Below, piece after piece: positions 51,878-60,897 of a stretch of 64,000 nucleotides of DNA; the stretch's first letter is position 1, and each line of letters starts with the position of its first letter. The notes beneath the pieces were generated by a model. The model did not search any database, was not told where the DNA came from, and saw nothing but the letters and a program-made list of their open reading frames with translations. The position numbers and the translations under genes were made by a program. This stretch comes from Flavobacterium fluviatile (GTDB taxonomy: Bacteria; Bacteroidota; Bacteroidia; Flavobacteriales; Flavobacteriaceae), in assembly GCF_010645065.1 (NCBI RefSeq), contig NZ_JAADZW010000001.1, positions 310,001-374,000 of the forward strand, in the 5' to 3' direction.

Positions 51878-53398
51878 ATGAATTCAAGCACCCCAATTAA
51901 GAAAAATATTGTTTTAGCCATATCCTATTTGTATGTCTTATTGTTTGTTTATGTAGCAATAAGCAAGCTTCTTGATTTTGAAAGTTTTAAAGTACAGATT
52001 GGGCAGTCTCCCATGCTTAGCATATATGCAGACTGGATTTCTCCTGCAGTGATCGCCATAGAACTTCTTATCGCTCTGATGCTTTTGAACCAACGAACAA
52101 AAATGGCAGCGCTATTCTTTTCTCTAGGATTAATGACGATGTTTACAGCCTATATTTTTATACTTCTCCATTACAGTTCTTTTGTGCCTTGTTCCTGTGG
52201 CGGCGTGCTCGAGAAAATGAGCTGGAACACGCATCTTATATTTAATATAGCCTTTGTTTCGCTTGCTGCATTGGGTATTCTATTAAACGCCAAACCGGCA
52301 GATAGCAATACTGCTGGAAAAAGAAAATACAGAACAATTAAATCAATTCTTGGAACTGTCGCGGGATGTATTCTAATGGTAGTTATTTTGTTTCTTTCAT
52401 CAGAAAAAGTAATGTACTATGATAACCCATTTATAAGACGCTACCCACAGCATCCTGCTGAATTTAAAAAGAAGATAGATCTGGGGTACAATTCATTTTA
52501 TATAGCTGGCGAATCGTACGGCAGAATATATCTTGCAAATTACGATTACCCTTCGTACATACAGTCTTATAATGCATTAATTAGTGACAAAAAAGAAGAA
52601 AAAATATTAATGGATCCAAAGAAAATTCCATTTAAGATGATAACGACAAAAATCCAAAGTTCATATTTCTATCTGACAGACGGAAGCGTTCCGATCATTT
52701 TAAGAGGAGATTTAAAAAATTGGAAAGTGGACAAAGAATTAAAGGGGAGTCCGTACTTTACAATTGCGCAGCCAATAGATTCTACCAGCGTCGCAGTCAG
52801 ATCCAACAGCTCAAAAAATATGCAGAATATGCTCGGGGTTTTTGACCAATATACTGTTCCAAAAGCTAAGTTTAACAGAACGTTACTTCAAAAACAGGTA
52901 GACGGCATATTTGATACTGACGGTGTACTGCTTTATTCTGAAATAAGCGGGAAAATTGTCTACGTACATCGTTACCGCAACGAAATTATTATTGCTGATA
53001 AAAAGGGCAGTCTTATTCGCCGAGGTCATACTATCGACACCATTTCCAAAGTAAAAGTGAAGGTGTCCAAATTAAAGGAGGGAAAACGATATGCGATGTC
53101 CACACCATCCTATGCGGTAAATGAAAATGCTGCAATATCAGGAAATCTATTGTTTATAAATTCAAAAGTAAAGGGCAGGTACGAAAATGACAAACTTTGG
53201 GAAACCTGCTTCATTATTGACGTTTATGATATCGAACGCAATGCTTATGTGCTGAGTTTTCCAGTTTTTCATACTGCTTCAAAACAGCTTCGTTCAATAA
53301 TGGTAAATGGGAAGTATTTATATGCCGTGATTGGAACTGATCTAGTGGTTTACGAGTTAAAGAGCAAGCAGATTAAAAAGTATAAGTCAAAGAATTAA
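51878..53398 (+). CDS. MauE/DoxX-type redox membrane protein with large C-terminal domain
   Basis: 506 residues. The first ~145 form a four-helix DoxX/MauE membrane unit: VLLFVYVAISKLLDFESFK…, the S/I-rich second and third helices, then PCSCGGVLEKMSWNTHLIFN with the paired cysteines typical of MauE. A fifth membrane segment (about 153-172, GTVAGCILMVVILFLSS) leads to an exported domain of ~330 residues with repeated beta-strand patterns resembling a propeller. MauE-type proteins are linked to disulfide formation or maturation of secreted proteins. The small four-cysteine exported protein 82 nt downstream is an obvious candidate partner. Confidence 0.75.
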   Translation: MNSSTPIKKNIVLAISYLYVLLFVYVAISKLLDFESFKVQIGQSPMLSIYADWISPAVIAIELLIALMLLNQRTKMAALFFSLGLMTMFTAYIFILLHYSSFVPCSCGGVLEKMSWNTHLIFNIAFVSLAALGILLNAKPADSNTAGKRKYRTIKSILGTVAGCILMVVILFLSSEKVMYYDNPFIRRYPQHPAEFKKKIDLGYNSFYIAGESYGRIYLANYDYPSYIQSYNALISDKKEEKILMDPKKIPFKMITTKIQSSYFYLTDGSVPIILRGDLKNWKVDKELKGSPYFTIAQPIDSTSVAVRSNSSKNMQNMLGVFDQYTVPKAKFNRTLLQKQVDGIFDTDGVLLYSEISGKIVYVHRYRNEIIIADKKGSLIRRGHTIDTISKVKVKVSKLKEGKRYAMSTPSYAVNENAAISGNLLFINSKVKGRYENDKLWETCFIIDVYDIERNAYVLSFPVFHTASKQLRSIMVNGKYLYAVIGTDLVVYELKSKQIKKYKSKN

Positions 53399-53480
53399 AA
53401 ATATACTGATCAGTATCAGGAAGGAAGATCGAACACCTGTAGAAAAAAGTAGATCCTATATAAATTTAAAATTAGAAATC

Positions 53481-60800: not shown

Positions 60801-60897
60801 AGCTGGCGGCATGAGTTGACGAAAAAGCTAAGGTAATGCCCATAAAAATTAGGCAACAAAGAGCTCTTCCATCCTTGTAAAATGAAAAATAATTCAT
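57874..60897 (-). CDS. SusC/RagA-like TonB-dependent transporter
   Basis: 1007 residues with signal sequence (…FSSTHAA). CarboxypepD-regulatory-like domain (about 45-125, [22 protein letters not shown]…), plug domain (…[62 protein letters not shown]) and outer-membrane barrel ending [35 protein letters not shown]. It imports a ligand powered by TonB. First gene of the susC-susD-S9 operon. Its leader contains the hairpin at 60943-60973. Confidence 0.93.
   Translation of the reverse strand: [1007 protein letters not shown]

Follow-up and report, generated by a model that had tools for sequence, protein, structure and literature searches.

A conserved set of five genes in Flavobacterium fluviatile can be read as a loop in which the cell exports a small peptide, oxidizes it and retrieves it. 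The genes lie in a stretch of 64,000 nt (contig NZ_JAADZW010000001.1, positions 310,001 to 374,000; the whole stretch is here called the window) and encode a membrane protein with a MauE domain, a small Cys-containing protein of the DUF6520 family (hereafter the peptide), an S9 peptidase and a SusC/SusD pair (SusCD). We propose that the peptide is oxidized by the MauE protein and has its own SusCD importer and processing enzyme, a reading to which we assign a probability of about 45%. The gene set itself is real, conserved and often mobile. It was originally predicted to lack a described function, and in agreement with this no description of the set was found in the literature under the terms searched; a full-text search found no paper on DUF6520.

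The genes were found where the original prediction had placed them: all five are intact open reading frames (ORFs) with Pfam or TIGR matches and form two convergent units at 51878-60897 (Table 1). The rightward unit is transcribed in the order MauE protein, DUF6520, and the leftward unit in the order SusC, SusD, S9. DUF6520 exceeds its family cut-off narrowly, and its genomic partner is constant. Judging from their N-termini, the proteins of the set are probably exported.

Co-occurrence of the Two Units

The genome that contains the window (5.11 Mb) carries the whole convergent five-gene set four times in the same order, and all four of its DUF6520 genes and all four homologs of the whole MauE protein fall in those sets. 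The rough chance of finding a convergent SusC gene within 10 kb is ~0.04 per locus, a figure derived from 42 SusC matches over the cut-off, which were counted as 41 genes because two of them are pieces of one gene.

A gene-neighborhood survey had been named as the check on the original prediction, and in this survey the two units co-occur; the missing co-occurrence that would have spoken against the prediction was not observed. A convergent SusC gene lies downstream in 139 of 156 MauE loci, whereas SusC upstream, which served as an internal control, was found in 3 of 156. Downstream SusC was counted in 4/4 loci of the window genome, 70/80 of the named genomes, 34/41 of the genus, 19/19 of other genera and 12/12 of the class-wide set, with 0, 1, 0, 2, and 0 upstream counts, respectively. 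The 156 loci were not dereplicated and the sets overlap (119 of 140 loci were distinct in the neighbor count). Less than 8 kb was available upstream in 10 loci and downstream in 5; SusC pieces shorter than 300 aa, two of which lie at the far upstream edge (L055 and L162), were left uncounted on both sides. The possible recurrence in Flavobacteriia was borne out beyond the genus: convergent SusC is present in all 29 loci outside it, 19/19 in the same family (16 other genera) and 10/10 in three other families (f2, f16, and f41; eight genomes, contributing 10 of the 12 class loci).

Scanning the named genomes with a motif yielded 545 relatives; the named ones closest to the MauE protein belong to Flavobacterium. 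In each of the 80 best loci, MauE and a beta-propeller (fused in 79 cases) are followed by between one and five DUF6520 genes and by a convergent S9 gene that is at least partly present. Since these 80 are the best of 545 by one motif, they are biased to close relatives. The MauE-propeller profile matched 81 of 199 genomes of the genus (three by marginal matches only), with up to six matches per genome. The 41 genus loci consist of L141 and 40 others, one per genome for 40 of the 81 matched genomes, taken from the better-scoring end before the neighbors were known. For other genera, 19 of 42 DUF6520 places were taken (16 of 23 genomes), mostly the better-scoring ones. The class-wide search gave a DUF6520 match in 18 of 395 genomes, and 12 of the 16 regions examined have MauE. 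Four weak DUF6520 matches outside the family (L207-L210) are without MauE and were taken as false. The constants of the set are MauE, peptide, SusC, and SusD.

An Exchangeable Enzyme Slot

The position between SusD and the peptide gene is occupied by S9 in Flavobacterium, and in the 19 other-genus loci by M16 (nine), Met-zincin (six), redoxin (three), or S9 (one). The M16 proteins form one sequence cluster (five were Pfam-checked; HxxEH in 9/9), and the Met-zincins, all Pfam-checked, carry HExxH in 6/6. In other families we found an S8 subtilase plus a redoxin in L204 and S9 in L197, and redoxins adjoin SusC in L198, L202, L205, and L206. Four unrelated peptidase folds and a disulfide-active fold share the same slot, which suggests that what is handled there is probably a peptide, perhaps one with disulfides. 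S9 had been predicted as a member of the set; this holds for the window and the genus, but elsewhere M16, Met-zincin, S8, or redoxin takes its place.

The Ser/Asp/His triad region of the window S9 is conserved in the four copies of its own genome, where G721, H722, S723, G725, G726, D812, and H844 are invariant. Among 110 S9 ORFs, crude patterns recovered the Ser motif in 100, the His pattern in 94 and the Asp pattern in 55.

A peptidase-inhibitor pair, in which the small protein would inhibit S9, was rejected because the small protein persists when the peptidase is swapped for another family or replaced by a redoxin. A glycan or polysaccharide utilization locus was also rejected, as the proteins scanned beside SusCD are peptidases or redoxins. 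In line with the absence of carbohydrate enzymes from the original prediction, Pfam scans of eight window proteins (the five genes and three past SusC) and 14 of the 19 other-genus slot proteins found no carbohydrate-active enzyme; these scans did not extend to wider neighborhoods or to the initial 44 kb of the window.

The Peptide and the MauE Protein

The window peptide has a hydrophobic N-terminus (residues ~1-30) and four cysteines (C49, C56, C65, and C81). When 103 four-Cys peptides were aligned (six two-Cys rows of 108 candidates had been left out beforehand), only M1 and the four Cys were invariant. Mean identity is 0.50 in the N-terminal 30 residues and 0.33 in the rest (0.28 without the Cys columns), and such N-terminal likeness above that of the mature part is unusual for a plain signal peptide. 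The mature part is under purifying selection, with ratios of nonsynonymous to synonymous substitution rates (dN/dS) of 0.03-0.08 in three pairs, one of them with near-saturated synonymous sites. It was modeled at a block-mean predicted local distance difference test score (pLDDT) of 84-90, and a peptide sequence search of solved structures gave matches only at E 0.19 or worse. The peptide was overlooked by our script in nine loci; in L205 and L206 it was identified by visual inspection. Tandem runs of three to five DUF6520 genes stand beside one MauE gene and one SusCD pair in L061, L062, L155, and L048.

The paired-cysteine motif foreseen in the MauE protein is PCSCGG (residues 104-109), and C105, S106, C107, G108, G109, W116, and H119 are invariant in 71 MauE sequences. 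The description as a MauE-like membrane protein was correct for residues ~1-180, but missed a separate C-terminal beta-propeller (~185-500). The propeller was modeled confidently (mean pLDDT 86), and its best VIA-align match is the Bacteroides vulgatus DUF4221 protein 3s9j (Z 19.0, root-mean-square deviation 3.6, 293 aligned); other propellers score almost as high, so the match speaks for the fold and not for a function. No Pfam match was found for the propeller part in the window protein or in two stand-alone versions elsewhere, and the MauE-propeller profile had no match among the sequences of solved structures.

The number of cysteines tends to follow the propeller. At loci where no propeller was found beside MauE, the mature peptide has two Cys in 21/21, against four Cys in 6/8 propeller loci outside the genus (Fisher p 5.9e-5, kinship ignored). 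This suggests that MauE alone handles one Cys pair and that the propeller arrived with the second. The predicted formation of disulfides by MauE fits the invariant Cys on both sides and the two-Cys peptides that accompany MauE alone; given its conserved CSC motif, MauE may oxidize its partner.

Covariation of the peptide with the other parts was analyzed in 82 dereplicated full sets (126 sets were examined and 108 have all five genes). The distance of the mature peptide correlates with that of all parts, as is expected of linked genes. In partial rank correlation it follows SusC (0.205, permutation p at its floor of 0.002), the S9 N-part (0.136), SusD (0.103), and the propeller (0.093), with values of ~0 for the MauE domain and the S9 C-part. 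With equal column numbers the values are 0.234 for SusC, 0.178 for the propeller, 0.164 for the S9 N-part, 0.10 for SusD, 0.03 for the S9 C-part, and 0.00 for MauE; with the 100 most variable columns the S9 N-part drops to 0.015. In these alignments the absence of peptide-MauE covariation is robust, but the lead of SusC over S9 is not. The MauE domain tracks its own fused propeller poorly (0.46), whereas the propeller correlates well with SusC (0.84), a pattern that would arise if MauE domains were exchanged or free to drift.

Proposed Mechanism and Alternative Explanations

In the proposed loop, the MauE protein and DUF6520 would form a production unit, and DUF6520 would be exported through the inner membrane by means of its N-terminus. 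The membrane-bound MauE domain, with its CSC motif, would oxidize the cysteine pair(s) of the peptide, and a periplasmic propeller may hold or proofread the two-disulfide forms. The convergent unit would act as a dedicated retrieval system, in which SusC and SusD bind the released peptide, alone or with cargo, for TonB-driven import. In the periplasm, the slot enzyme (S9, M16, Met-zincin, or S8) would degrade or trim the peptide, while a redoxin in this slot could reduce its disulfides. With a constant core that combines a Cys peptide, an importer and a membrane protein active on thiols, import of the DUF6520 peptide by SusCD appears to be the simplest interpretation. The retrieved peptide may serve as a signal, as a carrier of metal or cofactor, or for nutrition or recycling, purposes that are indistinguishable by sequence. 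A broader version, a class-wide pheromone or carrier loop of Bacteroidota on conjugative elements in which a matched SusCD retrieves the MauE-oxidized peptide of its own kind and not food, appears doubtful to us.

Several points weigh against the self-made-peptide loop. Seventeen of the 156 MauE loci are without a counted convergent SusC, and 11 of them (nine distinct) keep MauE and the peptide but lack SusC/SusD despite sufficient room; as for the remaining six, in L155 SusC is cut by the end of the stretch; the stretches of L046, L082, and L114 end within 2.5 kb; in L168 SusC is ~11 kb away (L196); and in L180 S9 is 7 kb away at the stretch end. In the family survey, five of 29 first loci (L027, L034, L035, L036, and L040) have no MauE in their 1.5-kb flanks, and two propeller loci (L138 and L204) carry two-Cys peptides. 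The covariation is weak. Linked genes have a common history, and when only the 100 most variable columns are used, the value for the neighboring S9 C-part (0.235) is as high as that for SusC (0.229). Neither Foldseek (best E 1.3) nor VIA-align (Z below 2 throughout) matched the peptide model to a PDB structure, and no carried ligand or receptor is known for the peptide. No route for its export across the outer membrane was recognized, and it may stay in the periplasm. Elsewhere, SusC/SusD pairs accompany peptidases or redoxins where no such peptide is encoded, so foreign peptides could be what the importer takes up, and the small protein could have a different role.

This last possibility leads to the strongest alternative, which we nevertheless consider unlikely: DUF6520 could be a MauE-oxidized periplasmic or outer-membrane accessory of SusCD (an assembly factor, plug or lid partner), and the importer would take up ordinary foreign oligopeptides for digestion by the slot enzyme. 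The four constants of the set would be explained, as would the strong purifying selection on the mature peptide, the fact that its distance follows SusC best in two of three tests, and the lack of a visible export route. There is a precedent in RagAB of Porphyromonas gingivalis, a SusC/SusD-type pair which in the accessible part of PMC11817032 is tied to peptide uptake and described without a partner peptide gene or MauE. Given the peptidase slot, RagAB-type oligopeptide import by the window SusCD is conceivable. However, the SusC profile scores ~1470-1920 in the genus and ~150-200 in L198-L203, L205, and L206, and one kind of small adaptor for such different SusC proteins would be odd. Moreover, up to five tandem peptide genes stand beside one SusC, and one would look for the gene of a subunit within the SusC operon rather than in a separate convergent unit.

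A competition system appears improbable. Here the peptide would be a disulfide-bonded bacteriocin, and SusCD plus the peptidase would confer immunity by import and destruction, or would be the receptor. Such a role agrees with variable and sometimes tandem peptides, with the location on mobile elements in up to six copies per genome, with C39 peptidase genes that adjoin some distant loci, and with MauE homologs in candidate clusters for ribosomally synthesized and post-translationally modified peptides (RiPPs), as described in the accessible part of PMC7794033. The bacteriocin option of the original prediction is weakened, though, by the two-contig genome G205 (L161), where MauE and the peptide are intact beside an S9 remnant of ~161 aa and the SusD/SusC DNA of a near twin was not found beyond short 73-76% matches (scoring covered the top four S9 candidates of each genome, and unrelated SusCD or S9 stand-ins may exist); other such loci occur. 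Close peptide copies are under purifying and not diversifying selection, and the MauE protein, peptide and S9 gave no PADLOC match (SusC and SusD were outside that scan). A known defense system was rejected after PADLOC analysis of six proteins, in which only the small helix-turn-helix (HTH) protein had matches, all of them HTH.

Genomic Context and Mobility

Upstream of MauE, a relaxase and coupling-protein block was found in ~46 of 119 distinct loci (~39%), with the coupling-protein family beside 45, and a PAS-AraC regulator in 44; smaller groups, labeled by eye, are DinB-like (15), DnaE-like (12), and DUF932-like (11). In many cases a conjugative element carries the set. In the window, the order of the element is mobilization genes, the set, a small HTH gene, variable cargo, a TPR-AraC regulator and conjugation genes (presumably tra genes). 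The first gene past SusC is usually small and often encodes an HTH protein, although the protein family varies. The stop codons of DUF6520 and S9 are ~40 bp apart in the window, and a strong hairpin (14 pairs, 6 G-C, followed by a T-run) sits between the two units. Such tight convergence is usual elsewhere, with a median peptide-S9 gap of 68 bp in the 121 loci that have both.

Table 1. Features of the convergent gene set and its surroundings (window coordinates).
Feature	Position	Strand	Evidence
Conjugative coupling protein (context)	47332..49320	-	Homolog in L115: PF02534, PF14293
Relaxase of the surrounding conjugative element (context, outside the set)	49333..50601	-	PF03432 96.3 bits
MauE protein, 506 aa	51878..53398	+	PF07291 101.5 bits (cut-off 27)
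DUF6520 small protein, 90 aa	53481..53753	+	PF20130 28.1 bits (cut-off 25.4)
Terminator-like hairpin between the convergent units, overlapping the S9 stop codon	53782..53814	+	Consensus match only
S9 peptidase, 890 aa, hydrophobic N-terminus	53795..56467	-	PF00326 Peptidase_S9 112.4 bits
SusD/RagB outer-membrane lipoprotein	56479..57864	-	PF07980 SusD_RagB 95.5 (above cut-off), PF14322 SusD-like_3 105.6
SusC/RagA TonB-dependent outer-membrane protein	57874..60897	-	TIGR04056 685.4 bits (cut-off 368.25); Plug, CarbopepD_reg_2
Small HTH protein, first gene past SusC, divergent	61425..61685	+	PF12844, PF01381

This context bears on two further explanations. The peptide could be a pheromone of the element, such that the re-imported peptide or a fragment reports donor density and regulates transfer via the HTH or TPR-AraC protein. 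We regard this as quite improbable: 46 of the 119 distinct loci do lie beside mobilization genes, and a small, often HTH gene is usually first past SusC, with TPR-AraC after it in 13 of 23 regions, but the small proteins belong to several families, are followed by variable cargo and may be part of it, 44 of the 119 loci have the different PAS-AraC context, and a path from the periplasm to the regulator would have to be assumed. Linkage without joint function, with a redox-stress unit and a peptide-nutrient unit in a common mobile module, fits the many loci that are mobile cargo and the truncated loci that retain one unit only, yet it is quite improbable given that the same convergent pairing recurs across four families whose SusC proteins and enzymes differ greatly and that two other MauE genes over the cut-off in the window genome have no convergent SusC.

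Several other observations were made around these loci. Past SusC (L213-L232, and the window from 61.9 kb), the cargo is highly variable and by eye partly defense-like, and the TPR-AraC regulator block follows it in 13 of 23 regions, one of which is only 2.7 kb long. Genes of ~7 kb (L180) and ~11 kb (L168/L196), some defense-like by eye, separate the peptide from S9. A protein of ~250 aa and a DUF5675 protein are paired beside the S9 half in L193, and the same pair is located near several sets (L198, L200, L070, and L165), also in another family. In family f41 (L202, L203, and L205), a C39-type peptidase and an RteC-like protein are found upstream of the MauE-peptide unit (C39 was Pfam-checked in L202 and L203 and RteC in L202; L205 was labeled by eye). 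Another MauE gene of the window genome, at G000:C84:154200-159763, lies ~2 kb from a divergent SusC with no DUF6520 match nearby.

A Recurrent Break in S9 Genes

Twelve loci (10 distinct) carry an S9 gene interrupted at one and the same position, ~9 nt ahead of the codons for the catalytic-serine motif GHSFGG (L057, L059/L154, L082, L083, L085, L107, L110/L162, L150, L161, and L046). Relative to the closest intact S9, these 9 nt contain 4-9 matches and the following 21 nt only 4-6, about the level of chance. The DNA beyond the break differs: two sites are in one conjugation gene, and the others are elsewhere. The S9 remnants are mostly closest to different intact S9 genes. L115 and L161 (G205) are near-identical over 11.9 kb (99.99%) and diverge at the break, past which S9-SusD-SusC is complete in one, while in the other an S9 stump runs into a conjugation region. 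The reciprocal S9 half was found in one genome (G258, L193), and one locus, L074, is broken elsewhere in S9. An integrase or transposase site within S9 is our guess as to the cause.

Relation to Known Systems

The set resembles proteobacterial lasso peptide clusters with an AtxE2-type isopeptidase in that a self-made, processed peptide stands beside a dedicated S9-family peptidase; these clusters also have a TonB-dependent receptor. The AtxE2 family is the top NCBIfam match of the window S9, and AtxE2 is among its solved relatives. In the accessible part of PMC7549694, proteobacterial lasso clusters without an ATP-binding cassette exporter mostly carry the isopeptidase gene. However, the match of 107.6 bits is far below the family cut-off of 400 bits, AtxE2 is not the nearest solved relative, and a lasso cluster was tentatively rejected on account of the score. 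Unlike in lasso clusters, the window peptide is Cys-based and the receptor is SusC/SusD; the lasso maturation proteins (B and C) were unrecognized among the recurrent neighbors, with no model search aimed at them.

A second likeness is to the MauE/MauD maturation system of methylamine dehydrogenase: the MauE domain is over the cut-off, its partner is small and Cys-containing, a beta-propeller is present and redoxins occur in several loci. Foldseek matches of the MauE-propeller model include the methylamine dehydrogenase chains 2gc4_A and 2j56_H, which we take to be the propeller heavy chain. The set differs in that no amine dehydrogenase was recognized and the propeller is fused to MauE, with a fold nearest to DUF4221. 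The small subunit of methylamine dehydrogenase has conserved Trp residues, and amine dehydrogenase assembly was rejected since none of the Trp columns in the alignment of 103 peptides is invariant or close to it. The set probably belongs neither to lasso clusters nor to methylamine dehydrogenase maturation, because its S9 misses the AtxE2 cut-off and its peptide is without the Trp residues of the dehydrogenase subunit.

MauE has also been found beside a predicted precursor in three candidate RiPP families of Streptomyces by decRiPPter (one of them with MauD), and a modification role for it was suggested by the authors (PMC7794033). These clusters are actinobacterial, and the accessible part of that paper mentions no SusCD. 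Taken as a whole, the interpretation in the original prediction is partly supported.

Significance

Bacteroidota very commonly use SusC/SusD pairs as importers, and glycan uptake is the function assigned to them almost automatically. We know of no self-produced peptide loop of the proposed kind from Bacteroidota. Present in four families of the class, the set names a candidate ligand for a number of orphan SusCDs, offers a role for MauE proteins outside amine dehydrogenases and gives DUF6520 a testable function. If the broader pheromone or carrier loop is true, these SusCDs would be receptors for a self-made peptide rather than for food.

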